Assembly: GCF_002251835.1 (NCBI RefSeq)
Contig: NZ_NOXV01000257.1
Location: 1-35,277, forward strand
Direction: 5' to 3'
From: Flavobacterium cyanobacteriorum
GTDB lineage: Bacteria > Bacteroidota > Bacteroidia > Flavobacteriales > Flavobacteriaceae
Length of the DNA: 35,277 nt
The notes under the pieces are model-generated. The model did not search any database, was not told the DNA's origin, and was given only the letters and a program-made list of their open reading frames with translations. A program made the translations under genes and the position numbers. How positions within the stretch are numbered: the stretch's first letter is position 1; each line of letters opens with the position of its first letter. Positions 10,839 through 25,083 of this stretch are shown piece after piece.

Positions 10839-11213
10839 ATGAACCTATTCAAAACAGTGCTACTTGTAGGATCCGGAGGGGCAGCCGGGAGTATTCTCCG
10901 CTACTTAACAGGCCGGGTTATAAGCAGGTATTGGCCTATATCGTTTCCTTTAAGTACTTTTATAGTAAATATAACCGGTTCATTTCTTATTGGTATGCTG
11001 GCGGGCTTTGCGCTTAGGTATCAGTATACTGACAATATTAAATTGCTGCTCATTACAGGGCTGTGCGGTGGCTACACTACATTTTCGGCATTTACCTTTG
11101 AAAATTTAAACCTTCTTCAGTCAGGTAATATTAAAACGGCACTGCTATATAGTACCTTCAGTGTCGTAACCGGAGTGGCGGCTACATGGGCAGGATTGTG
11201 CCTGGTGAAATAG
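10839..11213 (+). CDS. crcB: fluoride ion channel FluC/CrcB
   Basis: A 124-aa four-helix inner-membrane protein that exports fluoride as a dual-topology dimer. It has GGAAGSILRY (13-22), the FIVNITGSFLIG helix with pore Asn44, and GLCGGYTTFSAF (74-85), which holds the TTFS segment and two of the phenylalanines that line the pores. The length is standard. It is a single gene, transcribed divergently from fabG. No fluoride riboswitch is seen upstream, so expression may be constitutive or controlled otherwise. Confidence 0.93.
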   Translation: MNLFKTVLLVGSGGAAGSILRYLTGRVISRYWPISFPLSTFIVNITGSFLIGMLAGFALRYQYTDNIKLLLITGLCGGYTTFSAFTFENLNLLQSGNIKTALLYSTFSVVTGVAATWAGLCLVK

Positions 11214-11388: not shown

Positions 11389-11532
11389 ATGAAAATCATC
11401 AAATTTTTCTTAGCGATGCTCACCGGGTTCGGAATCATCAGGTTACTTAGCTTTGTAGCTGAAGTTGATGTAAATGATGAAGAAGAATATGAAGTTTATG
11501 ACGATGAGGCTGAGTACCCACTTTTTGTGTAA
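11389..11532 (+). CDS. 47-aa single-TM microprotein with acidic tail
   Basis: An ORF of 47 codons starts MKIIKFFLAMLTGFGIIRLL, a basic N-terminus followed by one hydrophobic helix. After it comes a strongly acidic, tyrosine-containing tail (about residues 25-43) and the end YPLFV. The organisation looks like a small inner-membrane protein with its acidic tail on one face. The preceding leader is AT rich (GTAAAACA just before ATG), and a hairpin follows the stop by 25 nt, both supporting a real gene. I do not recognise a family. It opens the run of small genes reaching to 14180. Confidence 0.5.
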   Translation: MKIIKFFLAMLTGFGIIRLLSFVAEVDVNDEEEYEVYDDEAEYPLFV

Positions 11533-11556
11533 TATAAATTACATACAAAATCATAA

Positions 11557-11575
11557 AGCACCTTTTTAAGGTGCT
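11557..11575 (+). terminator. hairpin after 47-aa ORF
   Basis: AGCACCTT (11557-11564) and AAGGTGCT (11568-11575) form a perfect 8-bp stem with a 3-nt T loop. The T-tract after it is weak, so it may be a terminator or a processing structure. Confidence 0.45.
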
Positions 11576-11653
11576 ATACCTGTTTATATCCCCTGCTGAT
11601 ATTTACTATCCCCTTTCCCTTTTAACATTTCACTTATCCTCCTTAACAGTTAT

Positions 11654-11714
11654 CCATAAAGTAAAGTTAAACCCTTTATTTATGGGGAAATTTTAAGACA
11701 CCCTTAATAGTGTC
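11654..11714. other. two adjacent hairpins in intergenic region
   Basis: The first pairs CCATAAA...TAAAG (11654-11666, one bulged G) with CTTTATTTATGG (11674-11685). The second pairs GACAC (11697-11701) with GTGTC (11710-11714). They lie in the 247-bp gap before the 72-aa gene, after a pyrimidine-rich stretch. They could be a terminator, an operator-like dyad or part of a small RNA; nothing decides between these. Confidence 0.35.
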
Positions 11715-11779
11715 CCCCTTATTCATTGGCTAATTTAGCAGTACATAAAGGTTTTTACAGCCTTATAAACTACGCTGCT

Positions 11780-11998
11780 ATGACAACACCTGATAAAGAT
11801 CAAAAGAGCGGAAACAACGGCTCCTATCATCAAATGAGGCCGGGAACTGACTATGCCGGAACTGATCCTGAACGTTACGAACACCTTATGGATGATGAAA
11901 ATGATACCGGGGGTACGGATGATGATGACTACAAGAAAAAACCCAAGAACCACACGACCACTGATGAAAGGCTGCTGAACCTCGACAGGGGCGAATGA
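11780..11998 (+). CDS. 72-aa acidic disordered protein
   Basis: The start at 11780 is preferred because a -7-like box TAATTTAG (11731-11738) lies downstream of the longer in-frame start at 11726. The product is very hydrophilic, rich in Asp, Gly, Thr, Asn and Tyr (for example ENDTGGTDDDDYKKK), and predicted to be disordered, without signal or membrane segments. I know no function. The composition is like hydrophilic stress-associated proteins, which is inference. It is followed 20 nt later by a micro-ORF and then by two more small genes in the same direction, so a small-protein operon 11780-12591 is likely. Confidence 0.55.
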   Translation: MTTPDKDQKSGNNGSYHQMRPGTDYAGTDPERYEHLMDDENDTGGTDDDDYKKKPKNHTTTDERLLNLDRGE

Positions 11999-12018
11999 TA
12001 ATAATAAATAAAAATGCT

Positions 12019-12063
12019 ATGATACCATCAAAAGGAAAACGGGGAAATGAAGAGGACAAATGA
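12019..12063 (+). CDS. 14-codon micro-ORF coupled to next gene
   Basis: ATG at 12019 opens MIPSKGKRGNEEDK and stops at TGA 12061-12063, which overlaps the ATG of the 62-aa ORF as ATGA. This could be a coupled leader peptide. It could also be the true N-terminus of the following protein, separated by a one-base frame change. The peptide composition resembles the protein that follows. Confidence 0.3.
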   Translation: MIPSKGKRGNEEDK

Positions 12064-12248
12064 TCGGCAAGAACGAATCTATGGAAGACAGTAAAAGGAA
12101 CTGGGATTCGGGCAATGATCCTGACAGGAGCAATGTTGACCATAACAAGCCTCAATTTGAACGCAGCGACATGAACGCCGACCAGGAAAAACGTGCCGGC
12201 AGCGGCGGTAGCGGAAAAACATCAGATAAAAACCCGGGAAACCGGTAA
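12060..12248 (+). CDS. 62-aa hydrophilic disordered protein
   Basis: A small, charged, Asn/Asp/Ser/Lys-rich protein (MIGKNESMEDSKRNW..., ending in a Gly/Ser/Lys tail) with no hydrophobic core, so probably intrinsically disordered. The start at 12060 overlaps the stop of the 14-codon micro-ORF (ATGA). An internal ATG at 12081 is an alternative start. The 100-aa membrane protein gene follows after 40 nt. I recognise no family. Its place among similar small genes is the main reason to keep it. Confidence 0.45.
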   Translation: MIGKNESMEDSKRNWDSGNDPDRSNVDHNKPQFERSDMNADQEKRAGSGGSGKTSDKNPGNR

Positions 12249-12288
12249 GCGGATTTGTCTTTTAATTATTAATCATAAACAACAAGTA

Positions 12289-12591
12289 ATGAGTAACAAA
12301 AAAGTTATTTTAGGTGTAGCAGCGGGAGTTGCAGCCCTAGCAGTTGCAGGTGTTATCTGCAAGAGAAAAGGTTATTTTGACAATCTTTCAACAGGAAACT
12401 GGGGAAGTAACCTTAAAAACAAATTGAACAACCTGAAAGATACTGCCATGCAAAAAATGGGCAGCGAATCAGGTAACGGCGGTGAAACCAACACTCAGGG
12501 AGCTACTAAAAGCACCACCGGAAAGAGTACTGCCAAAAAAGGTAACAGCATGGATACCGGTGATGCAGGAATGAACCCGGCAACCGCTTAA
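12289..12591 (+). CDS. YtxH-like small membrane-anchored protein
   Basis: A 100-aa protein. Start 12289 is chosen because it gives MSNKKVILGVAAGVAALAVAGV, a single N-terminal hydrophobic helix rich in Gly and Ala, and the region before it is AT rich; the longer frame from 12193 overlaps the previous gene. A basic segment (CKRKGYF) follows the helix, then an amphipathic stretch LKNKLNNLKDTAMQKMG, and a low-complexity tail of Gly, Thr, Ser, Asn and Lys. This is the layout of YtxH/gas-vesicle-like stress proteins, but the match is by general shape rather than clear motifs. It ends the 11780-12591 cluster at a strong terminator. Confidence 0.6.
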   Translation: MSNKKVILGVAAGVAALAVAGVICKRKGYFDNLSTGNWGSNLKNKLNNLKDTAMQKMGSESGNGGETNTQGATKSTTGKSTAKKGNSMDTGDAGMNPATA

Positions 12592-12611
12592 TGTATTGCA
12601 CATATGCATTT

Positions 12612-12639
12612 AATAAAGCTGCCTTCTGGCAGCTTTATT
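12612..12639. terminator. bidirectional terminator between small-protein cluster and tsaC
   Basis: AATAAAGCTGCC (12612-12623) and GGCAGCTTTATT (12628-12639) form a perfect 12-bp stem with the loop TTCT. The T/A-rich ends serve both directions, between convergent genes ending at 12591 and 12653. Confidence 0.85.
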
Positions 12640-12652
12640 TGTTTTACAAGGT

Positions 12653-13273
12653 TTACAATATATCGGGGTCGCCCTTACCTTCGCGAACTACTACAGGCTC
12701 AGGGCCGGAAAGGTCAATAATAGTTGACGGGATATTGTCTCCGTATCCGCCGTCAATAACTATATCAACAAGATGCTGCCATTTTTCAAAAATCAGTTCA
12801 GGATCCGTTGAATATTCCAGTACCTCGTCTTCATCGTGTATAGATGTCGATATAATAGGATTGCCGAGCCTCCGCACAATTTCCAGCGCAATATTATTAT
12901 CCGGTACACGGATACCTACTGTAGTTTTCTTTTTAAATTCTTTAGGCAGGTTATTGTTCCCGGGTAGTATGAAAGTATAGGGCCCCGGCAGCGAGCGCTT
13001 TAATATCTTAAACGTACTTGTGTCAATTTGTTTCACATAATCTGACAGATTACTAAGGTCACTACATACAAACGAAAAGTTAGCTTTTTCAAGCTTAATG
13101 CCTTTAATCTGGGCAATACGCTCCAGGGCGCGCGATTTGGTAATATCACAACCTAATCCGTAAACTGTATCTGTGGGGTATATTATAATGCCTCCGTCAC
13201 GCAGCGTTTCAACAATTTTGCTGATTTCTTTTTCATTGGGATTTTGCGGATAAATTTTTACGAACCGGGCCAT
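12653..13273 (-). CDS. tsaC: L-threonylcarbamoyladenylate synthase (Sua5/YciO/YrdC family)
   Basis: A 206-aa enzyme that makes threonylcarbamoyl-AMP from threonine, bicarbonate and ATP, the first step of t6A37 modification in tRNAs that read ANN codons. The YrdC signature is clear: EISKIVETLRDGGIIIYPTDTVYGLGCD (split motif, PTDTVYGLG at 33-41), followed by KRSLPGPYTFIL and the basic VGIRVPDN and NPIISTS segments. Its size fits the short TsaC-like form without the C-terminal Sua5 domain. YciO paralogues look similar, so the exact orthologue is not certain. It converges on the small-protein cluster and splits it in two. Confidence 0.88.
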   Translation of the reverse strand: MARFVKIYPQNPNEKEISKIVETLRDGGIIIYPTDTVYGLGCDITKSRALERIAQIKGIKLEKANFSFVCSDLSNLSDYVKQIDTSTFKILKRSLPGPYTFILPGNNNLPKEFKKKTTVGIRVPDNNIALEIVRRLGNPIISTSIHDEDEVLEYSTDPELIFEKWQHLVDIVIDGGYGDNIPSTIIDLSGPEPVVVREGKGDPDIL

Positions 13274-13367
13274 AGGATTTAGTTTCAGTGTTTCAGGTTA
13301 AAGTTACAAACTTGTATGAGAACACAGTGATAACTAAAGCAAAATTTACAGCTTTCCGCCTCATGCA

Positions 13368-13375
13368 CAAATATA
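13368..13375 (-). promoter_or_regulatory. putative -7 box for tsaC
   Basis: The minus strand reads TATATTTG, a perfect TAnnTTTG match, but it lies about 95 nt before the ATG, implying a long leader. No -33 element is clear. Confidence 0.3.
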
Positions 13376-13413
13376 TGTTAATCCTGCTGTAGTACCCATA
13401 TATAATAAATAAC

Positions 13414-13438
13414 TTGGTAGTAACTAAACTATTACCAA
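13414..13438. promoter_or_regulatory. imperfect dyad upstream of the TM-protein/PRC-barrel pair
   Basis: TTGGTA (13414-13419) and TACCAA (13433-13438) form the arms of an inverted repeat with a further G-T, T-A, A-T extension inward. It lies 16 nt before the ATG at 13455, where an operator would overlap the promoter or leader. No TAnnTTTG box is seen in this gap, so the pair may use another sigma factor or signal. Confidence 0.35.
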
Positions 13439-13454
13439 CTAAAACTTTTGGATT

Positions 13455-13655
13455 ATGGCAGAAATTAAAATTGAAAAGAAAAAACCGGTATGGCCCTGGA
13501 TACTGCTACTGCTCGGCATTATCGCGCTTATTTACTTCTTATTCTTCAGGGACAGGGAAGCAGAACAAGATGTTATTGAAGAAGTTGAAGAAACAACAGG
13601 AATGGTTACCCCGCAAACCGGAGTAACCGGAACCTACACCCATTATCTTACCTAA
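13455..13655 (+). CDS. 66-aa single-TM protein
   Basis: A small membrane protein: a basic N-terminus (MAEIKIEKKKP), one strong transmembrane helix (about 12-32, WPWILLLLGIIALIYFLFF) and a basic then acidic tail (RDREAEQDVIEEVEE) ending in a Thr/Gly-rich stretch. The positive-inside rule puts the N-terminus in the cytoplasm, but both flanks carry charge. Its stop codon is immediately followed by the ATG of the PRC-barrel gene (TAA then ATG, no gap), so the two are surely cotranslated. Similar short proteins occur beside PRC-barrel genes in other Bacteroidota as I recall, but no function is established. Confidence 0.65.
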   Translation: MAEIKIEKKKPVWPWILLLLGIIALIYFLFFRDREAEQDVIEEVEETTGMVTPQTGVTGTYTHYLT

Positions 13656-14180
13656 ATGAAAAATACTATGGAAAAGCACAACAAAAATTTATACTATCTT
13701 GACGAACTTACTGATTATAAAGTAGCAAGCCATTATGCAGACGTAAGGGGCTGGAAACTTGTAGATGCTAATAACAGGGCTATTGGCAAAGTAGATGACC
13801 TGCTGGTAAACAAGAATACCAAGCGTGTGGTATATCTTGATATTGAAGTAGATAAAGATATAATTGAACAAGGTCATGAGCCTTTTGAAAACCGGGCAGA
13901 AGGCGGCACGCATGAATATATTAACAAAGATGGCGAAAACCACCTTATAGTCCCTATAGGGTCAGCTAGCATTGACACCTACAATAAACAGGTGCAGACC
14001 AACGAAATAAGCTATGATAGTTTCAGGAAGGCCAAAAGGTTTAGCAAAGGCCAGGATTTTGACAGGGGTTATGAAGTGCAGATAATCAATATTTATTATA
14101 ACAACCCTGACAGCAACCCTGACAACAATGACGATGACAGCTTTTATGAAAGCAGGCATTTTAATGACCGCAGGGAATGA
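13656..14180 (+). CDS. PRC-barrel domain protein
   Basis: A 174-aa soluble protein with a PRC-barrel like the one in photosynthetic reaction-centre subunit H and in the RNA-processing protein RimM. The barrel begins at about residue 23 (KVASHYADVRGWKLVDANN), goes on with AIGKVDDLLVNKNTKRVVYLDIEVD, and closes with HLIVPIGSASIDTYNKQVQ. The C-terminal tail is Asn/Asp rich and probably disordered. No signal peptide is present. Stand-alone PRC-barrel proteins of this type are often stress induced, but their mechanism is unknown. It is coupled directly to the upstream TM protein. A second in-frame ATG at 13668 could also serve as start. Confidence 0.82.
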   Translation: MKNTMEKHNKNLYYLDELTDYKVASHYADVRGWKLVDANNRAIGKVDDLLVNKNTKRVVYLDIEVDKDIIEQGHEPFENRAEGGTHEYINKDGENHLIVPIGSASIDTYNKQVQTNEISYDSFRKAKRFSKGQDFDRGYEVQIINIYYNNPDSNPDNNDDDSFYESRHFNDRRE

Positions 14181-14186
14181 AAAACA

Positions 14187-14241
14187 AAGGCTGTTTCAGG
14201 AATTATACTTTAACGGTAAGTATAATTCCTGAGACAGCCTT
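14187..14241. terminator. exceptionally long bidirectional hairpin terminator
   Basis: A 24-nt arm (14187-14210) pairs with 14218-14241 with only one G-T pair, around the 7-nt loop TAACGGT. It lies exactly between the convergent PRC-barrel and UvrD/PcrA genes. On the minus strand the stem is followed by TTTGTTTTTC, on the plus strand by TTATTAATTT, so it can end both transcripts. Confidence 0.8.
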
Positions 14242-14247
14242 ATTAAT

Positions 14248-16590
14248 TTAACCTATAACATCAAGCCTTGCAAAACGGAGCAATAACTTCTTTATGCCCC
14301 CCACTTCAAATTTTATTTCAGCTTTTTTATCAGCCCCTATCCCTTCCAGGCCAAGTACCTCGCCTTTGCCAAAACGCTCGTGCATTACTATATTGCCAAC
14401 TGCCAGCTTACTGTCAACTACAGGAGCTGTGCTTTGCGGCGCAGTTCCGCCTACAGGCTTAAGCCTTCGGATGTTAAGGTCTGGCTTTGGTTCATTATCT
14501 GTAACCCACCTTGGAGGTGTACTGTTAACAGGCTTGTTAAGGCGCAACTTTGATTTATCTACATCGCCAAAAATATCTGTATCTATCATAGGCTTGTACC
14601 TATAATTGTTTTCAGCAGGCGTGAGGTATTCTAAAAACGTATCGGTAATCTCCTCAATGAAACGTGAGGGTTCACTATCAACAAGTTTACCCCACCTGTA
14701 GCGGGATTGCGCATACGTTAAATAAGCCTGGTGCTCAGCCCTTGTCAGGGCCACATAAAACAGCCTCCTCTCCTCTTCCAGCTCACTTCGGGTATTCATG
14801 CTCATAGCGCTCGGGAAAAGGTCTTCTTCCATTCCTACTATAAAAACATAAGGAAACTCAAGCCCTTTAGCAAGGTGTATCGTCATAAGCGCCACCCGGT
14901 CATCATCACCTGTATCTTTATCCATATCGGTAGCCAGGGCTACGTCTTCCAAAAATTCTGATAAAGCTCCCCTTGCCCCGTCAACTTCTTTTTGCCCCTC
15001 TGTAAAATCCTTTATACCGTTAAGCAGTTCCTCAATATTTTCAATACGGGCTATACCCTCGGGTGTGGCATCTTTTTTTAGTTCCTGTATAAGCCCCGTT
15101 TTTTTTGTAATATGCTCTGCTACATAAAAGGCATCATGGGTTTCGTTGAGTATCTGGAAACTTTTAATCATGGTGACAAAATCCTGAAGCTTGTTTTTTG
15201 TACCGCTGTTAAGTTTCAGGTCAATCCTGTCAATATTTTCCATCACCTCAAAAACCGAGCGGCCATAGTGGTTGGCAGCAACGGTAAGTTTATCAACAGT
15301 GCTGTCCCCTATCCCTCTTGCCGGATAATTTATTACCCTTACCAGTGCCTCTTCATCTTTAGGGTTTACTACCAGCCTCAGATATGACAGTACATCTTTA
15401 ATTTCCTTACGCTGGTAGAACGACAAGCCTCCATAAATACGGTATGGTATATCGCGCTTACGCAACGCATCTTCAATAGCACGCGATTGTGCGTTGGTAC
15501 GGTAGAGTACCGCAAAAGAGCCGTTTTTAAGCTGGTTGCGCATTTTTTCCTCAAATATGGTTCCGGCTACAAAGCGTCCTTCTTCAGCGTCCGTAAGGCT
15601 ACGGTGCACTTTTATCTTGTTGCCTTCATCATTGGCTGTCCATACTACTTTGTCAAGTTTTGTTTTATTCTTGTCGATAATAGAGTTGGCCGCGTCTACA
15701 ATATTTTTTGTTGAGCGGTAATTTTGCTCCAGGCGGTATAGCTGCACGCCATCATAATCCTTTTGGAAATTAAGTATATTGTTGATGTTGGCCCCCCGAA
15801 ACGCATATATACTTTGCGCGTCATCGCCCACCACACATATGTTCTGGTACCGGTCAGACAATGCCCTTACAATAAGATATTGTGAATGGTTGGTATCTTG
15901 GTACTCATCAACCAATATATATTTAAACCGTTCCTGGTATTTTGCCAGCACCTCCGGAAAACGGTTCAGAAGCTCATTGGTACGCAGCAACAGGTCATCA
16001 AAATCCATAGCACCTGCCTTAAAGCATCGGTCTACATAATTTTGGTATATCTCACCCAGCCTTGGTTTTTTTGACATTGCATCGGCTTCCTGGAGTTCAG
16101 GATTGTTGAAGTATGCCTTAACCGTTATCAGGCTGTTCTTGTATGATGATATCCTGCCCAGTACCTGCTTAGGCTTGTAAATATCTTTATCAAGCTGCAT
16201 TTCTTTGATGATAGCAGTAATAAGGCGAACGCTGTCCTGCGTATCATATATAGTAAAGTTAGAAGGAAAGCCCAGTTTATCAGCCTCAAACCTCAGTATT
16301 TTAGCAAATATCGAGTGGAATGTACCCATCCATAAATTCTTAGCTTCACTATTTCCAACAATATCCGCTATACGTTTTTTCATTTCGCGCGCCGCTTTGT
16401 TGGTAAAAGTAAGGGCAAGTATATTAAAGGCATCAACACCCTGGCTCATGAGGTAAGCAATACGCATGGTAAGCACCCTTGTTTTCCCTGATCCTGCTCC
16501 GGCAATCACAATCATCGGGCCGTCTTTCTGTAGCACCGGTGCCTGCTGTGCTTCATTCAACTGGCTTATGTATTTCTGCATATCTGTCAT
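14248..16590 (-). CDS. UvrD/PcrA-type superfamily 1A DNA helicase
   Basis: A 780-aa 3'-5' ATP-dependent helicase for DNA repair and conflict resolution. The motifs appear in order: a Q-motif-like LNEAQQAPVL, Walker A AGAGSGKT (30-37), NILALTFTNKAAREMKKRI, Walker B VDEYQDTN, the GDDAQSIYAFRGA motif, LEQNYRS, MTIHLAKGLEFPYVFIVGMEEDLFP, and the motif VI segment RRLFYVALTRAE. The last ~50 residues (GNIVMHERFGKGEVLGLEG...) form the PcrA/UvrD Tudor-like domain that contacts RNA polymerase. All core motifs are intact. A -7 box at 16596-16603 sits right before the ATG, so the mRNA is nearly leaderless, or translation starts at Met4. Confidence 0.92.
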   Translation of the reverse strand: MTDMQKYISQLNEAQQAPVLQKDGPMIVIAGAGSGKTRVLTMRIAYLMSQGVDAFNILALTFTNKAAREMKKRIADIVGNSEAKNLWMGTFHSIFAKILRFEADKLGFPSNFTIYDTQDSVRLITAIIKEMQLDKDIYKPKQVLGRISSYKNSLITVKAYFNNPELQEADAMSKKPRLGEIYQNYVDRCFKAGAMDFDDLLLRTNELLNRFPEVLAKYQERFKYILVDEYQDTNHSQYLIVRALSDRYQNICVVGDDAQSIYAFRGANINNILNFQKDYDGVQLYRLEQNYRSTKNIVDAANSIIDKNKTKLDKVVWTANDEGNKIKVHRSLTDAEEGRFVAGTIFEEKMRNQLKNGSFAVLYRTNAQSRAIEDALRKRDIPYRIYGGLSFYQRKEIKDVLSYLRLVVNPKDEEALVRVINYPARGIGDSTVDKLTVAANHYGRSVFEVMENIDRIDLKLNSGTKNKLQDFVTMIKSFQILNETHDAFYVAEHITKKTGLIQELKKDATPEGIARIENIEELLNGIKDFTEGQKEVDGARGALSEFLEDVALATDMDKDTGDDDRVALMTIHLAKGLEFPYVFIVGMEEDLFPSAMSMNTRSELEEERRLFYVALTRAEHQAYLTYAQSRYRWGKLVDSEPSRFIEEITDTFLEYLTPAENNYRYKPMIDTDIFGDVDKSKLRLNKPVNSTPPRWVTDNEPKPDLNIRRLKPVGGTAPQSTAPVVDSKLAVGNIVMHERFGKGEVLGLEGIGADKKAEIKFEVGGIKKLLLRFARLDVIG

Positions 16591-16713: not shown

Positions 16714-19700
16714 TTAGTTTACATTTTTGATAACCCTAAGCGTTTTAACCGTTTCGCCTTGTGTTACAATCAGGTTGTAAACACCGGCAGCAAGGTTTCC
16801 GCCCAGTTTTAGGCCAGGAAGCTGTGCAGCTTCTATATCAAGCCTGTCAACTAGTTTACCAGCCATATCATAAACTACGATGTGAATCATTTCCTGGCTT
16901 TCTGTTGTAAAGTCAACAGCAAAGGTTTCAGTAAACGGATTCGGGTAAGTAGTTATCTTAACATCATCTTCCTCACCAGCATCAGCCGATGGCCTGCCGG
17001 CAGTGTTTGATAATGTTACCTGGCAAGCAGGGCCATACGCTGACTGCGAACCATTTGGAGATATGGTCATGATATCGATAGTTACAGTCGCACCGGCAGG
17101 AATTACAACGTTTGAAGGCAAGAACTTCAACCTGAATTCTGTATTGGTACGATCAACTATGTAAACCTGATTAGTAGAGGTCGTTACTCTAAATCTATAG
17201 ATAGCTACATTATGAACACCATTCGCAAAAATGCTTGTCCTCCTGTTTGCAACAGTAGCTCCACAATCTACAGCCCTAAGCTGCGTTGTTGCAGGGGCAG
17301 CAACAGATGTTACAGTACATGCATTTCCAGGAGTGCTTGTAAATCCTGTAGCATTTGCCGTTACTGTAATAGTGAAAGTTACGTTGTAATCAAAGTTGTT
17401 AAGCATTTTCAACGTTATATAGTTGTTTGGTGTTGTAATGCTCTGAGTACCCAGCGGAGAAGTCACAGTAAAGGTATAACTTTGCGCAAGGGCAACGCTA
17501 TTAGCATAGATTAGTTGCCCCGGAGTAACACCTGTTATACCGCAGCTATTAGCCATAAGTTGCGTTGCCGGAAGCGTAGCTCTTGTAGTTACCTGGCATG
17601 AACTTCCGTAAGAAGACCATACACCGCCTGCCAATACGCTAACACTTACTGTGTATGTAGTTCCATAAGAATACTGTGGCAGCATTTTTAATGTGAACCA
17701 TTGCGCAGAGTTATCTACGAAATATGTTCCTTCACTTGAAACCACTCTAAACCTATATGCTGTGGCGCTACTTACAGGATTTGCATAAATAAGAGTACCA
17801 AAAGTATCTACCGTCATATTGCAAATTGTTAATTGTGTAGATGGCGGTACTGAAGGTGTAGAAATTCTACAAGCAGGACCATAATCGCTCCATACACCAT
17901 TCCTGTTTATAGCTACATCAATAGCATAAGTTTGTCCGTAAGTTAAAGTCGCTGGTACTATACCAGAAGGAAGCATGTTCATCCTAAACAGACTATTGCT
18001 TGTTGTTACTTCACCTATAACGTTACCATTCCTTACACGGAATCTGTATTGTGCAACATTCGGTAAGGCCGTAGCGTATAAAATTTGGTTATAGCTAGTT
18101 AAAACAGCAGTACATGATGAACTTAATAATGTTACTGTTGATTGTGTAGTCACATTAAGCGTATAGTCTTCAAAAGAAGCATTAGTCCCTGTGAAGCAGG
18201 CATCAAAAGTAGCGCTTGTAGTCCTACCGCCTATCCTCATCCTGTGGTTGCCCAGAGGAGCAGATTGTGGTATAACAAATGAAGCTGCTGCTGTTGCCTG
18301 TGCTGAAGTACTGCTAAACACAGCTTCGCCGGCATCATTAAAGTCAAGGTCATCGTTCCAGTCAACCCAAATTTTAGTAAAGTGGGCTGTTGATCCGTAT
18401 GACACACTAACATTAAGTGACTGCGTTCTTTCACCTGAACCAACTAATGTTGCATAGTTACCGTAGTTACCTGTTTCAGTAGTTGTAGTATTATTTACGG
18501 TACCGAAAGTAACATTAGTAATACCACTACCCGCTACAGAGCTAGGCGCCGGAGTACAGTAGCCGGTAAAGGCTGTTACCGCAGTAGTCCATCCACTGAA
18601 GTCTGTAGCACTACAGGCTGAACGAACATAAACACTGTAGTTAGTATTTGGCGTAAGGCCAAGGGTAGTAACTGAAGTACCTGGTACATTGCCACCAAAT
18701 ACAAGTCCTGTAGCACCGCTTCCTGCTCCGCCACTGGTCCTTATCTCATACTGGTAGCCATTTCCAGGAGCCTGTAAAGGCGCTGTCCATGTAGTAGTTA
18801 CAGATTCTAAGGTACTTGTGGTTGTAACACCGGTAGGTGTATTACATGGCGTACCAATAGTTACTGAAAATGATCCTCTGGAAGCCAGTGTTGTAGAGTA
18901 AGCCCTGATATAGTATACCGTGAATGGCGTGAGACCAGAGATTGTTGAAACAGCACCTGTTGAGTTACATCCAATTTGTGTTAATGTACCACATGCACCA
19001 GAGTATACCGCATAACCGATAGCTGTTGGTGCCGTTGCTGTAGTAGATACAGTAACACTTGTGTTAGCGCCTGAATTGAACTCAAACCATGTATCATAGT
19101 AAGTAGCAAAACTGCTTCCGCAACTTGGGAATGCAACACCTGTACTTGCTGTAGAACAAGCATTGTTAGATGCTGTTGTTGTGCCTACAAGTACTGTCTG
19201 CGCATTTGCACATTCGTTATTTATAGCTGCAGGTGTACACGGAGGAGCGCATGTTACGGTAAAGTTATACGATACTGTAGAGGTATTAACAAAAGCAAAA
19301 ACCAATATATAGTAAGTAGTACCAGCTGTGGTATTTACCTGTACTTCCGAAGACAAGTTTGCTGTAGTACATGCGCTGTTGTCATCATTTCCACCAACAC
19401 AAGTTAACGCTCCACAAGTTCCGGTATAAACTGCCATCCTGGTATCTGTCTGTGTTGGGCTGCAGGTACTGAATGTAACTAAAGATCCGTTACCTACAAA
19501 CTTATACCAAACACCTGCGGAATTTTGGGTTGTAATACTTGAAATACCGCAAACAGCCATGTTATCATTTGTTGAGTTTACAGTTGTTCCGGAAATTGTA
19601 TTTCCACATGACACTGTTATAGCACCAGAACAAACATCATTAGCTACACGTGTAGTAAACGTTACTGCTGTAGTCCAGTTACTCCTGTTATCAGTATCAC

Positions 19701-22700
19701 AAACTGAACGTACATATACAGAATATGTAGTTGATGGAGCAAGGCCTACCAGGTTAGCTGTTAAACCTGTAGCAGTTGAAGTACCAAATAGTCCTGTATC
19801 ACCACTTCCCGCAGCACCACTAGTCCTTACTTCCCACTGGTATCCGTTTGTCGGAGTCAACTGTGTAGGCGCTACCCACGAAATAGTAGCTGTTGTAGCA
19901 GTTACATTTGATGATGCAACACCTGTTGGCCTGTAGCATGTAGGCACTGTTGCAAAAGTAACTACTGAAGTCCACGGGCTAAAGTCGCCTTCACCACATA
20001 CTGAACGAACATAAACGGAGTGTGTAGTATCAGGAGCCAGGCCTGTAAGGTTAGCTGAAAGGGTATTTGTAGCACCACTGGCTGCAAGGCCTGTAACACC
20101 ACTTCCCGGATTGCCTGATGTACGTACTTCATACTGATAACCTCCTGACGGAGCAGTTGTTGGGGCTATCCATGAAATTGTTGCCGTATTTGTTGTAATT
20201 GCTGAAGAAGCCACACCTGTTGGCCTTGGGCAAGGTACTTTTACAGTAAGGGTAAAGTCGCCCCTGCCTAAGACAGTTGTAGAGTAAACTCTTATAAAAT
20301 AATTAGTATTTGCTGTTAGCGTAACGTTGTTAGCCGCACCACCAGTAAAGCATGAGCCGGTTACCGGAGTTAAACTTCCGCAAGCTCCAGAATAAAGTAT
20401 GTATCCTACAGCTGCCGTACCTGTTGGTATAGCTGAAACTTCAAGGGTCGTATTTGAACCTGAATTAAATGAATACCAGCTGTCATAGTAAGTAGCAAAA
20501 CTGCTTCCGCAACTTGGGGATGCAATATTTGTATTGGCCGTTGCACATGTATTGTTTGTAGCAAGCGGCACACCAACTGTTAATGCTGTGGCAGTAGCGC
20601 ACTCATCATTAGTTGTTTCAGGTGTACAAGGCGTAACACATGTCATGCTTAACTGGAAATTAACCGTATTGGTAGAACTGGTTCCAGAAGAATATGCATG
20701 CACTAATACATAATACTCTGTGCCTATTGTTGTTCTTATCAGTACTTCAGACGATAAATCTTCAATTGTACAGCCTGCATTATCATCATTACCCGCAACA
20801 CATGTCATGGAACCACAAGATCCGGTGTATACATTTAATCGTGTATCGCCGGATGAAGCCGAACAAGTGCTTAATGTTACATCTCTACCGTCTCCTGTAA
20901 ACTTATACCAAACACCAGCCGTTGACTGACTTGTTACGCCGCTAATACCACATATAGCCATGTTGTCATTAGTAGCACCTGTAGTTGACGAAGTAACAGA
21001 ATCTCCACAAGCAATAGCTGTTGCATTTATACAATTATCATTTGCAGGGCGCACTGTAAATGTTGCGCTGGCCCATGTACTTGATTCTTCAGCAGAACAT
21101 AAAGACCGTACATATACAGTATATGTAGTGCCTATAGTTAAACCTGTAGCAGGATTACTTCCAAGTCCGGTAACTGTACCGCTTGCAGTCAATCCCGTAG
21201 CGCCGCTTCCTGCCGCTCCTGAAGTACGTATTTCATACTGGTAACCGTTTGCAGGGTTAGAGTCAGATGCTGTCCATGAAACAAGTGCCGATGTACCTGT
21301 TACAACGGGTGTAAGCCCTGTAGGAGGAACGCACGGCGGCGGTGCAACTAAATTCCAGGTCAAAGTAAACGTACCTGAGCCTGAACCCCAACCATCCTGA
21401 ATCCAGTAAACTGTCTGTGAGCCGTTAGTAGTATTTGTCCATGTTTCGTTAGTTACATCAGTATCCCTACATACAATCTCTGTAAGGCTGCCACAAGTGC
21501 CGTAAGCCAGTGTATGGGTATTATCATAAGATGAAGCCGTAATATTTATATTCAATGTATAGTTTTTAGGTACAACAATTGAAAAATAAGCATCAGGCGC
21601 AGTAGTAGTGAATGATGAACCACATGATGGCAATGCATCATTATTAAAGTTTACAGTAGTGCCAACATATGGGCTTGTAAGTGTAGCAAGATCCAGCGCT
21701 GTAGCACATGTATCTCCAAGGTTATACCTATAGATTGTAGATGTAGCCCAGGCACTAAAATCACCTCCTCCGCATGATGTACGTACATGAAGATAATAAG
21801 CAGTACCAGCAACAATAGTCTGTCCGGTTACGGATGTATCTGTAGTAAATGTACCTGAGGCAGGTGGTGTTGCTGATGTAGTAAAGGCATACTCATATCC
21901 TGTTGGTGCAGGGCCTGCCGTTGGTGCAGTCCATGAAAGATCAACAGTTAAAGCCGTAGTATCCAGGTTACCAACAGTTACTGCAGTAGGTACACGGCAG
22001 GCAGTCTGGGTGGTAAAGCTAGTCTGGTTAGCAGCACCGCAAGCAGGAGCGCCGTTAACGTTCTTAGGCACTACATACCAAAAATATTGGGTAAGGCCAT
22101 TTAACGCCTGGCCTGCTGTAAGGGTATATGATGTAGTAGTAACATTTGTCAGTAATGTTGTTGGTCCTGACTGTGTCCCTAAATAAATATCATAACTTGT
22201 TGCGTATTGTGCTGATGCCCAGTTCAATGTAGGTGTTAAACTTGTTCCTGTAGCTGCGTTAGCCGGAGAAGAGTTAGTTGTACAAGAAGGTACAGGGCTA
22301 AATATACAAATAGAGAATTGGCTGTTATCAACAGGGTTTCCGCTTGTTCCTGATGGATGCCTGTAAACCCTTACATAGTATTCCTGTCCTGCTACTGTTG
22401 TAAAAATCACCTGTTCAGTAATTCCTGTAGAACCATTATTAATACAACTAATAGGATTTAATACCAAATCATTTCCGTTGCAGGAACCTGAAGTTATTGA
22501 ATAAGCCTGAACAGCAACATCAAAGCCCGGAACAGCAGTAACGGTTGCGCCGTGAGTAGTAGATGTTGCAGTAAACTTGAACCAAACATCATTAACATTT
22601 GTTGCTGCACCGGTACAAGTAGGGGCTACAACACCATTACTAGTAGTAGTGGTAGCATTTAATATACTTGTGGTACTTGGTAACATTGAATCAGTATACG

Positions 22701-25083
22701 GCGTACATGTTGTTCCGCTTGGTGTCAGCGCCACAGCGCCACATGGGTCATTATTTGACGGAGGCGGTACCAGCGTGCTTGCACATATTGAAATAAGTGG
22801 GGTGGTACCATTACCAGAACTTGCATGGTAAACCCTTACATAATACGTTTGCCCCGGAGTTAAACCTGTGGCACTTATGGTCTCTGTTAAGCCGTTTCCA
22901 AAAGCATTTGAACAGGCTACTGAAGTTGTACCTGCATCACTGAACAGTTGTAGAACAGCGTCATATCCGCCACCACCAAATGCCTGGATTGTTATATTAG
23001 GGTCTGTAGCTACAAACTGGAACCAAACATCATCATCTGCACTACCGGGTGTAGTAGCAGTACAGGCAGTTATACCTGTAGTTGCTGTAGCGCCCGATGT
23101 ATTGTAATATGTATTACAGTATGATGTACATGGGCCTACGTTTAAACTAAGCGCAATAGCGCCTGCCGGGTCGTTATTTACCGGAATAGTTGAGGCCGGT
23201 GGTACATAGGCAGTATAGGTTCCGGGCGTAAACAATAAACTTGTATTACATTGTGGCGGAACGTTAAGGTTATTTACAGCGGTTGCTGCAAAACTCCTCG
23301 TATTTGCCAGCTGCTGTGAAGTAAGGTTACTTGCATTTGCTGTAACTATGTTCTCGCCATTTAAGCCTGTAGCATAGCTATATGTGGTGTTTAATGTTCC
23401 GTTAAATCCTTCCATAGTTCCATAAACAAACTCAATATTATTTGATGTTTCATAGAACTTAACCTGGAAATTAAGGTTAGGGCCTGCATTTTGGAAAACT
23501 TCCATACCTGCCCACTCTATAGTGAGCACCCTGTTAGGGGAAACTCCACTAACAGCATATTTTATAGGTGCATTAGATGCCTGTAATGAAGCCACAGTAT
23601 TGGGGTTACCCGGTGTAACAAGGTCAGCCCAAAAAGGTGCGATTACACTTTTCCAGGTACCGGTACTACCAATACCAGTCGTAAAAGCCGAATGTGATGA
23701 AAGTGCCGCATTGCTCAAAGTTACAAAACCGTTAACATGGGCGCGGAAACCTGTAACACTCGTTCCCCTGTAGGTAAATGGAAAAGGGAATGTTACCTGT
23801 GTACTTGTATTTTCATCGGTTTGCCAGGATGAGTTAACAGCTGGGGTTGATGATGTTGTACTCCAGGTAAACGTATTACCTGTAGCCATTATTGAGTTAT
23901 AAGTAACCCCTGTATTACGGGCAACATCATAAGTACAAACAGTTACTGAATACTGTACAGCACTCGTATAAGCTATTTGCGATGAGTTGGTACAGGTTAC
24001 CCGAAGCCTATAGAAGCGGTTGCTGCTAAGTGCTGGTGGTGTGTAGGTGGTAGTAGTTGCACCTGTGCCTCCAACAGCATTAGCCCACGCATCAGCAACA
24101 CCGTTGTCATCAGATTCTTCCCACTGGTAAGTGATGCCCAGATCATTTGAAACGCCAGTAGCTGTAACAGCAGGTGGTGTACCACCCGAACAGACTCCAA
24201 ATGATGCCGGAATAGTTCCCGCAACAGGCGTTCCTGAACATTGTACAGGCGGCGTAAAGGTATAGGTCCTTCCCGCAGTAATTGCATCTGTATTATTAGT
24301 TGTAAATACTGTACTCGATGCAGTGTTGGTAGCAGCAACAACAGTATTAAACACGGTAGCGCTTGTTGCAAGACCAATGGTGGCACCACTATTAGTTGAA
24401 TTGATTACCATACCATTGCCATAAACAAACTGAACTACATTTGTAGTTTCATATAGCCATGCCTGAAAACGTGCATTAGCGGCGGCAGATGAAGAACGTG
24501 GAACAGTAACGAACCATTCAATGATACGAATCCTGTTAGGGGCGGTACCAATGAGTACTGTATGAACCCTTCCGCCTCCCGCATTTGTCCCTGTATGCAA
24601 ATCATCCCAGTAAGGCATTATAACAGGGGAGGCAGTAGCAGCGTTAGCAGCACTATTAGTCCACTGATCTGTAACAACTGTAGCCCCAAGCCTGACCAAA
24701 CCATTGGCGTTTGCAGAAAACTGGGTGTAGTTAGTGCCGGCGTAGTTAAACGTAAAACCAATCGAAGTTACAGCAGAGACACCGTCATCACTTGCTGAAG
24801 CTACAAGCTGCGCTGAACCTGACATAGGATCAAGCGTACCTGAAGTTCCGGTTGCAAAAGAATAGCCGGACACTGCCTGTGCATAGCTAAACTGTGTACT
24901 AAAAGTTAATAAAAATAAAACAAGTGCGGCATAAGCCCAGTGTTTCACTTTGCCCGTTGAGAGCTGACTTCGCCCTGGTGGAAACGTGAAACCAACATTT
25001 CCTGCGGATGCCTCCCGGGCACGCACACAGGATTTGGTACAGACAGACAAGCCCGTATCCAAAATTTGGTAGTTTTGGTTCAT
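16714..25083 (-). CDS. giant T9SS-secreted modular adhesin-like protein
   Basis: A 2789-aa surface or secreted protein. A 45-residue polar extension precedes a signal peptide (about 46-68, ending SYA). Two beta-rich modules (about 70-285 and 385-610, each with an IEW segment and a VQFVYG/IEFVYG strand) flank an Ig-like unit. Then follow about seven jelly-roll units opening NDxC or similar and containing WF/WYKF (PPC-like), interleaved with about six fibronectin-III-like domains marked GYQYEVRTSG and YSVYVRS. A GEVED-like domain lies near 2176-2315 (WVDWNDDLDFNDAGE, ending FEDYTLNV). Four ~90-aa repeats (about 2316-2690) come before the T9SS type A sorting domain (TTYPNPF at about 2711 to the end, VYNLIVTQGETVKTLRVIKNV). 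It probably acts in adhesion, matrix or glycan binding; no catalytic domain is visible. It is monocistronic, with a strong terminator. Confidence 0.9.
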   Translation of the reverse strand: MNQNYQILDTGLSVCTKSCVRAREASAGNVGFTFPPGRSQLSTGKVKHWAYAALVLFLLTFSTQFSYAQAVSGYSFATGTSGTLDPMSGSAQLVASASDDGVSAVTSIGFTFNYAGTNYTQFSANANGLVRLGATVVTDQWTNSAANAATASPVIMPYWDDLHTGTNAGGGRVHTVLIGTAPNRIRIIEWFVTVPRSSSAAANARFQAWLYETTNVVQFVYGNGMVINSTNSGATIGLATSATVFNTVVAATNTASSTVFTTNNTDAITAGRTYTFTPPVQCSGTPVAGTIPASFGVCSGGTPPAVTATGVSNDLGITYQWEESDDNGVADAWANAVGGTGATTTTYTPPALSSNRFYRLRVTCTNSSQIAYTSAVQYSVTVCTYDVARNTGVTYNSIMATGNTFTWSTTSSTPAVNSSWQTDENTSTQVTFPFPFTYRGTSVTGFRAHVNGFVTLSNAALSSHSAFTTGIGSTGTWKSVIAPFWADLVTPGNPNTVASLQASNAPIKYAVSGVSPNRVLTIEWAGMEVFQNAGPNLNFQVKFYETSNNIEFVYGTMEGFNGTLNTTYSYATGLNGENIVTANASNLTSQQLANTRSFAATAVNNLNVPPQCNTSLLFTPGTYTAYVPPASTIPVNNDPAGAIALSLNVGPCTSYCNTYYNTSGATATTGITACTATTPGSADDDVWFQFVATDPNITIQAFGGGGYDAVLQLFSDAGTTSVACSNAFGNGLTETISATGLTPGQTYYVRVYHASSGNGTTPLISICASTLVPPPSNNDPCGAVALTPSGTTCTPYTDSMLPSTTSILNATTTTSNGVVAPTCTGAATNVNDVWFKFTATSTTHGATVTAVPGFDVAVQAYSITSGSCNGNDLVLNPISCINNGSTGITEQVIFTTVAGQEYYVRVYRHPSGTSGNPVDNSQFSICIFSPVPSCTTNSSPANAATGTSLTPTLNWASAQYATSYDIYLGTQSGPTTLLTNVTTTSYTLTAGQALNGLTQYFWYVVPKNVNGAPACGAANQTSFTTQTACRVPTAVTVGNLDTTALTVDLSWTAPTAGPAPTGYEYAFTTSATPPASGTFTTDTSVTGQTIVAGTAYYLHVRTSCGGGDFSAWATSTIYRYNLGDTCATALDLATLTSPYVGTTVNFNNDALPSCGSSFTTTAPDAYFSIVVPKNYTLNINITASSYDNTHTLAYGTCGSLTEIVCRDTDVTNETWTNTTNGSQTVYWIQDGWGSGSGTFTLTWNLVAPPPCVPPTGLTPVVTGTSALVSWTASDSNPANGYQYEIRTSGAAGSGATGLTASGTVTGLGSNPATGLTIGTTYTVYVRSLCSAEESSTWASATFTVRPANDNCINATAIACGDSVTSSTTGATNDNMAICGISGVTSQSTAGVWYKFTGDGRDVTLSTCSASSGDTRLNVYTGSCGSMTCVAGNDDNAGCTIEDLSSEVLIRTTIGTEYYVLVHAYSSGTSSTNTVNFQLSMTCVTPCTPETTNDECATATALTVGVPLATNNTCATANTNIASPSCGSSFATYYDSWYSFNSGSNTTLEVSAIPTGTAAVGYILYSGACGSLTPVTGSCFTGGAANNVTLTANTNYFIRVYSTTVLGRGDFTLTVKVPCPRPTGVASSAITTNTATISWIAPTTAPSGGYQYEVRTSGNPGSGVTGLAASGATNTLSANLTGLAPDTTHSVYVRSVCGEGDFSPWTSVVTFATVPTCYRPTGVASSNVTATTATISWVAPTQLTPTNGYQWEVRTSGAAGSGDTGLFGTSTATGLTANLVGLAPSTTYSVYVRSVCDTDNRSNWTTAVTFTTRVANDVCSGAITVSCGNTISGTTVNSTNDNMAVCGISSITTQNSAGVWYKFVGNGSLVTFSTCSPTQTDTRMAVYTGTCGALTCVGGNDDNSACTTANLSSEVQVNTTAGTTYYILVFAFVNTSTVSYNFTVTCAPPCTPAAINNECANAQTVLVGTTTASNNACSTASTGVAFPSCGSSFATYYDTWFEFNSGANTSVTVSTTATAPTAIGYAVYSGACGTLTQIGCNSTGAVSTISGLTPFTVYYIRAYSTTLASRGSFSVTIGTPCNTPTGVTTTSTLESVTTTWTAPLQAPGNGYQYEIRTSGGAGSGATGLVFGGNVPGTSVTTLGLTPNTNYSVYVRSACSATDFSGWTTAVTAFTGYCTPAPSSVAGSGITNVTFGTVNNTTTTETGNYGNYATLVGSGERTQSLNVSVSYGSTAHFTKIWVDWNDDLDFNDAGEAVFSSTSAQATAAASFVIPQSAPLGNHRMRIGGRTTSATFDACFTGTNASFEDYTLNVTTQSTVTLLSSSCTAVLTSYNQILYATALPNVAQYRFRVRNGNVIGEVTTSNSLFRMNMLPSGIVPATLTYGQTYAIDVAINRNGVWSDYGPACRISTPSVPPSTQLTICNMTVDTFGTLIYANPVSSATAYRFRVVSSEGTYFVDNSAQWFTLKMLPQYSYGTTYTVSVSVLAGGVWSSYGSSCQVTTRATLPATQLMANSCGITGVTPGQLIYANSVALAQSYTFTVTSPLGTQSITTPNNYITLKMLNNFDYNVTFTITVTANATGFTSTPGNACTVTSVAAPATTQLRAVDCGATVANRRTSIFANGVHNVAIYRFRVTTSTNQVYIVDRTNTEFRLKFLPSNVVIPAGATVTIDIMTISPNGSQSAYGPACQVTLSNTAGRPSADAGEEDDVKITTYPNPFTETFAVDFTTESQEMIHIVVYDMAGKLVDRLDIEAAQLPGLKLGGNLAAGVYNLIVTQGETVKTLRVIKNVN
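19094..20518. repeat. internal duplication with 36-nt identical blocks
   Basis: Inside the giant gene, 19094-19129 and 20483-20518 are identical over 36 nt, spaced 1389 bp (463 codons). They mark corresponding positions in two copies of an Fn3-PPC-PPC supermodule whose proteins align over several hundred residues. The two blocks could recombine and delete or duplicate one supermodule in frame. Confidence 0.75.

Follow-up and report, generated by a model that had tools for sequence, protein, structure and literature searches.

A cluster of small genes in Flavobacterium cyanobacteriorum that probably joins two unrelated modules, one of them a membrane microprotein and PRC-barrel pair

The PRC barrel is a protein domain that was reportedly named in a 2002 paper. 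Among the described PRC-barrel genes, one of Sphingomonas melonis is tabulated with general-stress promoter motifs (PMC6599016), two of Mesorhizobium loti appear among the genes overexpressed after heat shock (PMC3989490), and AvaK-type genes of Nostoc punctiforme are given as up together with csbD genes in alkane overproduction (PMC7660261). The stretch analysed here, called the window, is 35,277 bp of Flavobacterium cyanobacteriorum (contig NZ_NOXV01000257.1, positions 1 to 35,277). At positions 11389-14180 it carries a cluster of small plus-strand genes, the last two of which, p66 and PRC, encode a microprotein with a single transmembrane (TM) segment and a PRC-barrel protein. We know of no counterpart, in Bacteroidota, of the sigma-S, sigma-B or EcfG general stress systems, and the original prediction had taken the whole cluster for one stress-response island. 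With moderate confidence, we favour another reading: two unrelated conserved modules became neighbours through a lineage-specific gain of p66-PRC (or its loss elsewhere) between tsaC and a uvrD-type helicase gene, the pair being a stress-linked membrane anchor with its barrel.

The two halves of the cluster

The plus-strand open reading frames (ORFs) of 47, 72, 62, 100, 66 and 174 amino acids (aa) were located at the positions claimed for them. The first half, module A, consists of p47 (11389-11532), a unit of its own, and of the operon p72 (11780-11998), p62 (12060-12248) and p100 (12289-12591). The second half, module B, consists of p66 (13455-13655) and PRC (13656-14180), the PRC ORF beginning one base past the p66 stop codon. 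The tsaC gene lies between them on the minus strand (12653-13273); it encodes an L-threonylcarbamoyladenylate synthase (TIGR00057, 4e-58) and was considered a bystander. On the other side of PRC, the minus strand carries the uvrD-type helicase gene (14248-16590), named by eye without a family scan. More than chance is involved, as p47, p100, p66 and PRC each have clear homologues outside this genome.

The distribution of the two halves was compared in the genus. Relatives of p100 were present in 19 of 298 genomes and relatives of p47 in 13 of 298, all 13 being among the 19. PRC occurred in 53 of 299, one of these being the genome of the window (G000). The p66 profile matched 55 of 298, corresponding to the 53 of PRC plus two weak hits in longer frames (G021 and G268, E 6e-4 and 4e-5), which were put aside as probable chance. 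The four genus samples were drawn alike, their lists not being proven identical. The p100 and PRC genome sets overlapped in G000 alone, compared with 3.2 other genomes expected (P of none approximately 0.03, kinship ignored).

The surroundings of tsaC were informative in the same respect. A close match to tsaC was present in 60 of 61 genus genomes, G049 (60% complete) having a distant match only. Sixty other genomes were searched, and loci were obtained from 29 of them. In 26 of these loci uvrD was in view beside tsaC, and none of the 29 had p66 or PRC, the window being alone among the 30 read. The gap between tsaC and uvrD was about 75-80 bases in G024 and G144, compared with 974 in the window. 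This comparison, together with the short gaps, implies that p66-PRC would have been gained here, or lost elsewhere, next to module A. The two modules also have different upstream blocks, and a terminator-like hairpin (12612-12639, plus strand, -18.4 kcal/mol, z -5.4) closes the first half and separates it from p66-PRC.

A single island, in which all the small genes share their regulation and are interrupted by tsaC only, would agree with the common strand, with the similar small size of the genes and with the stress association of some PRC relatives. We rejected it as improbable because of the co-occurrence data, the terminator-like hairpin, the upstream blocks and the tsaC comparison. The conservation of gene order that had been suggested as a check was observed inside each half, for module A in its relatives and for p66-PRC in 78 of 78 loci, whereas the halves stood together in G000 alone. 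For the reading of genomes, this case indicates that small genes that look clustered can be several independent modules.

The p66-PRC pair and its two proteins

In a first set of loci, p66 was 5' of PRC in all 30 loci other than the window. A scan of named genomes was then based on the best 80 of 199 relatives. A PRC ORF was present in 78 of these 80 loci, and each of the 78 had p66 no more than about 210 bases 5' of it, the p66 of L193 being only a partial ORF close to the contig end. The DNA available for L170 and L190 held no PRC ORF, so that they fell outside the 78 testable loci. Many of the named genomes are Flavobacterium genomes already included in the genus count. The 38 non-Flavobacterium loci belong to Cyclobacteriaceae, Bacteroidales, Prolixibacteraceae, Ignavibacteria and others, many being metagenome bins with labels that are perhaps wrong. 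When the window and 20 neighbourhoods of ~19 kb were compared, all 21 contained both p66 and PRC, the runner-up being a short-chain dehydrogenase (7/21). As judged from gene order and occurrence, p66-PRC is a separate, genuine and widely spread two-gene module of Bacteroidota and Ignavibacteria.

The distance matrices of the long p66 form described below and of PRC were correlated over 38 loci, with r = 0.89, a value reached by none of 5000 permutations and also expected from shared ancestry alone. A PRC tree was built from 56 rows, with weak support for 15 of its 53 inner branches. The Flavobacterium copies occupied several separate places in it, some of them nested in a group that also contains Bacteroidales, Ignavibacteria, Polaribacter and Algoriphagus. 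This scatter led us to read the pair as exchanged in one unit, and p66-PRC appears to have been exchanged horizontally as a two-gene operon.

Two forms of p66 exist, a short one of about 50-90 aa, to which the window protein belongs (MAEIKIEKKKPVWPW), and a long one of about 190-220 aa with an extra domain. The first 15 residues, MAEIKIEKKKPxWPW, nearly invariant and basic, are the sole stretch conserved across both forms. By the positive-inside rule, this N-terminus would be cytosolic. The window p66 has one hydrophobic segment (best 19-residue Kyte-Doolittle mean 2.49), and p66 is likely, on sequence grounds, to be the membrane anchor of PRC. The extra domain of the long form has invariant residues of its own and is predicted with confidence to be a helical bundle. 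It had no fold match in the PDB at E 0.001 or better, and a sequence search gave two weak matches only (E 0.05 and 0.9). The residues M80, D83, H84 and H132 are conserved in the long p66 of L034 (8906-9505) and its relatives, and could form a ligand or metal site. Just 5' of the window p66, an inverted repeat (TTGGTAGTA...TATTACCAA, 13414-13438) was discarded as a real element, as 23 out of 200 shuffled versions of this piece folded equally well or better.

The 174 aa PRC protein matched PF05239 with 30.3 bits for a cut-off of 21.2. Its best 19-residue hydropathy mean was 0.17 and no TM helix was seen; the idea that every gene of the cluster encodes a hydrophilic or single-TM protein held for p72 and p62 (hydrophilic) and for p47, p100 and p66 (one hydrophobic segment each), and gave way for PRC, a predicted folded barrel. 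Foldseek gave 265 fold matches at E <=10, and the 50 listed were all H-type chains of reaction-centre entries. When a profile of 44 PRC sequences was compared to the PDB at E <=1, the 26 matches were 25 H-type chains, reaching 5e-9, and a P450 reductase (E 0.43); none was RimM. As M5 hardly varies in the alignment of 44 rows, translation of PRC possibly starts at this fifth codon (position 13668).

Upstream repeats, genomic company and possible role of the pair

A 21-bp direct repeat recurs 5' of p66. It exists in two types, one of which is GTGTGAATNATGTAAC-N15-TGTAAC. The leave-one-out repeat score was above 0 in 52 of 79 p66 upstreams (99% level in shuffles, -1.7); these were 19 of the 38 non-Flavobacterium upstreams and 33 of the 40 from Flavobacterium genomes other than G000. 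No description of the pair or of the repeat was found in the open-licence literature searched. The exact pattern of the type above was looked for in 10 genomes picked from those holding p66-PRC; 65 sites were found, in eight of the 10, and none with the reversed pattern. Thirty of the 65 sites were obtained as loci, giving 33 site rows, two being repeats. An ORF of at least 45 aa was present 20-200 bases downstream in 24 rows and absent in nine. Ten downstream proteins were chosen for a Pfam search, of which seven matched YceI, MlaE, baeRF, KaiC, DUF5670, catalase and BON, and three matched nothing. CsbD matches started about 80-100 bases past repeat sites in G324, G328 and G335, and one further CsbD gene was downstream of a repeat site in L176. 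Repeat sites were often clustered (L240-L269; G335:C17, G339:C5 and G328:C290), and the genes behind them would make up a candidate stress regulon. The second type was present once per genome in 11 of the 16 Flavobacterium tried, 14 of which hold the pair, and always 5' of p66.

The genes next to p66-PRC were analysed in the 38 loci outside Flavobacterium (338 kb) by BLAST clustering, one member of each cluster being named by Pfam. The families most often encountered were baeRF (14 loci), AI-2E transporter, PAS histidine kinase and CsbD (6 each), S30AE and alpha/beta hydrolase (5 each), MscS and DUF5670 (4 each). The 36 genomes of these loci hold 44 CsbD matches in 149.7 Mb, so that about 0.10 would be expected in 338 kb, compared with the 6 seen (Poisson 1e-9, kinship ignored). 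In Flavobacterium the pair stands alone, no other family being present in more than 7 of the 21 neighbourhoods.

We propose that p66 would be an inner-membrane anchor, the nearly invariant, basic and cytosolic N-terminus of which would contact the soluble PRC barrel directly and, under stress, when the pair would be expressed, bring it to the membrane's inner face. Once at the membrane, PRC, being of the reaction-centre-H type, might brace or regulate a membrane complex as its client. Module A would supply small disordered protectants and membrane microproteins, as suggested by composition.

A stress role of p66-PRC is plausible. The link is credible in part of the relatives, those outside Flavobacterium with CsbD, DUF5670 or S30AE nearby and the 19 of 38 with the repeat, and none has so far appeared in G000. 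Several observations weigh against the stress part of the favoured reading. The repeat score of the window p66 was -25.5, the lowest of 79, and neither repeat type is present in good form in G000; this is the chief result against stress control of the pair in that genome. The 19 of 38 upstreams outside Flavobacterium that lack the repeat are chiefly from Cyclobacteriaceae and marine Flavobacteriaceae. In the Flavobacterium tried, the second repeat type, being present once per genome and 5' of p66, points to p66 alone rather than to a stress regulon. Some of the CsbD neighbours belong to genomes that are related to one another, which makes the Poisson value too strong. The copy in the window is divergent (identity <=56%), and its PRC was modelled with moderate confidence (mean predicted local distance difference test, pLDDT, 64). 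As for the first half, nothing direct ties module A to stress, the tie of p72 and p62 being their composition.

Part of these observations would suit another explanation, that p66-PRC serves ordinary growth, as a pair linked to the membrane or the ribosome, and that its stress-gene company reflects accessory regions gathering mobile genes. PRC barrels are also present in RimM, the Flavobacterium pair stands alone with its single repeat 5' of p66 (11/16), the stress-type repeat is missing from half of the copies outside Flavobacterium, and the tree is suggestive of wide exchange. In other genomes, however, p66 shares its repeat with catalase, BON, YceI and CsbD genes, and the PDB sequence matches are 25 of 26 to reaction-centre H chains with none to RimM. 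A housekeeping role is in addition disfavoured because the presence of the pair is patchy (53/299 genus genomes). We therefore regard ordinary growth as an unlikely explanation, and keep the stress-linked anchor and barrel as the preferred reading of module B.

A bolder version can be put forward tentatively. In this version p66-PRC would frequently belong to a general stress regulon of Bacteroidota and Ignavibacteria, controlled by an activator acting on GTGTGAATNATGTAAC-N15-TGTAAC and including catalase, BON, YceI, CsbD, DUF5670, baeRF and KaiC-like genes. The pair would be a split, light-independent relative of the H subunit, whose barrel and membrane helix, carried by two proteins, would come together at the inner membrane upon stress; the window pair would have been cut loose from the repeat after transfer. 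The pair, with its H-like barrel, and the direct repeat, which in some lineages also precedes catalase, BON and CsbD genes, could offer a concrete way into a general stress system of Bacteroidota.

Module A, other features of the window and known systems

The proteins p72 and p62 are strongly hydrophilic, with N+D+G of 35% and 37% and a grand average of hydropathy (GRAVY) of -1.92 and -1.95, respectively. The best 19-residue hydropathy means of p47 and p100 were 2.02 and 2.62, each protein having one hydrophobic segment. In p47, the C-terminal P-L-F was invariant in 9 rows, the protein ending with PLF(V/I) in 9 of 9; at 11510-11532 an acidic stretch precedes this end (PLFV in the window), possibly a C-terminal recognition tail. 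In p100, the initial MSNKK and the single glycine/alanine-rich hydrophobic TM segment, which a polar tail follows, were kept, and the N-terminal third was strongly conserved (9 rows). The p47 and p100 genes were separated by no more than ~2 kb in nine other genomes and were apart in G132, G230 and G242. No p100 relative was confirmed among viral contigs.

BLAST relatives of p72 were found in L084, L088 and L089 with the gene order of the window, and those of p62 preceded p100 in L082, L084 and L088, again in the same order. The E-values were weak, these being low-complexity proteins searched with the low-complexity filter off. Similar-sized ORFs occupied the place of p62 in L083, L087 and L089. 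A 14 aa ORF (12019-12063, plus strand), which the original prediction had counted as a gene, is present in the DNA and shares the ATGA of the p62 start. No matching short ORF preceded p62 in any of six relatives, and a conserved gene is improbable.

A conserved, promoter-like block of 50 bases (11691-11740, plus strand) is located 5' of p72-p62-p100. It is composed of TTAAG-N5-CTTAA and TAATTTAG, and GTTAAAC is also present at 11667-11673. Leave-one-out scores were 35-57 in five rows, two of which came from close relatives, for a reversed-sequence control <=16.9; a sixth row, L083, fitted less well and was excluded from the matrix. In G205 the block occurred once in 1.6 Mb (about 40%), 5' of its own p72-type operon, and its candidacy as a wider operator was dropped on this result. 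The pattern upstream of p47 was, by eye, unlike the operon block. The conservation of the block exceeds that of the p72 and p62 proteins, as would be expected if these were untranslated and the conserved feature were the block together with an RNA. But relatives keep the size and order of both ORFs and, for p72, the C-terminal motif (NHxxxxERLLxxDRGE) despite sequence divergence, and no Rfam element was present in the window at the gathering threshold, so that we consider this explanation very improbable. On their sequences, p72 and p62 are hydrophilin-like, predicted disordered proteins and p47 and p100 predicted membrane microproteins; module A, made of these small proteins, is a lineage-specific set of a minority of Flavobacterium. 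That it protects in water or osmotic stress would be a guess from composition.

The scan of eight proteins against Pfam and NCBIfam gave matches above the curated cut-off for PRC, tsaC and crcB only; named stress families (CsbD, YtxH, DUF5670 and similar) were thereby set aside for p47, p72, p62, p100 and p66. The crcB gene precedes p47 in the window (10839-11213), in G223 (L084:7249-7626) and in G205 (L088:7538-7915); identity between the crcB proteins is just about 45-48%, and their wider surroundings are not the same. Two mechanical ORFs are longer than the genes retained: that of p72 opens at a TTG (90 aa), upstream of the ATG at 11780, and that of p100 at a GTG (132 aa). The search for terminator-like hairpins gave seven sites, compared with 2.8 in shuffles. 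Past p47, the hairpin at 11557-11575 (-10.7 kcal/mol, z -3.5) was called on the minus strand only. The strongest of those described here closes p66-PRC (14191-14237, plus strand, -37.5 kcal/mol, z -11.6) and faces the minus-strand helicase gene. No tRNA was found in the window. On the minus strand, a 2789 aa ORF (16714-25083) contains, by eye, repeated adhesin-like segments and a look-alike of a C-terminal secretion sorting signal.

When compared to the stress PRC-barrel genes of S. melonis, M. loti and N. punctiforme, the window PRC is similar at the level of the domain; those genes belong to other phyla and have other regulators. The passages on these three species mention no membrane microprotein partner, unlike the situation of p66-PRC. 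Hydrophilins are defined by more than 6% glycine and a high hydrophilicity. This compositional definition describes p72 and p62, with glycine at 9.7% and 11.3% by hand count and a GRAVY of about -1.9, which would liken them to hydrophilins and to small LEA-like proteins; the likeness is one of composition, with no Pfam or NCBIfam match above cut-off. We take p100 to resemble the YtxH-type small membrane stress proteins, in which an N-terminal hydrophobic segment is followed by a polar tail, and it had no match to these families in Pfam or NCBIfam at E <=1.

The closest likeness is that of PRC with the reaction-centre H subunit (PuhA; TIGR01150 and PDB H chains). The barrel and the C-terminal part align over 113-158 columns, mostly 137-146. 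The score against the TIGR01150 equivalog was 33.2 bits, below the cut-off of 200. The PRC chain differs from H in having no N-terminal TM helix, the TM segment being in the separate neighbour p66. The systems differ as well, as no reaction-centre core gene was detected in G000: Photo_RC (PF00124) had no match there and, among 14 control genomes, was positive in Synechococcus only. Because of the missing TM helix and of this result for Photo_RC, PRC is, according to its model and sequence, H-like yet not an H subunit. The comparison suggests that the barrel of the H subunit is part of a wider, non-photosynthetic family working at membranes.

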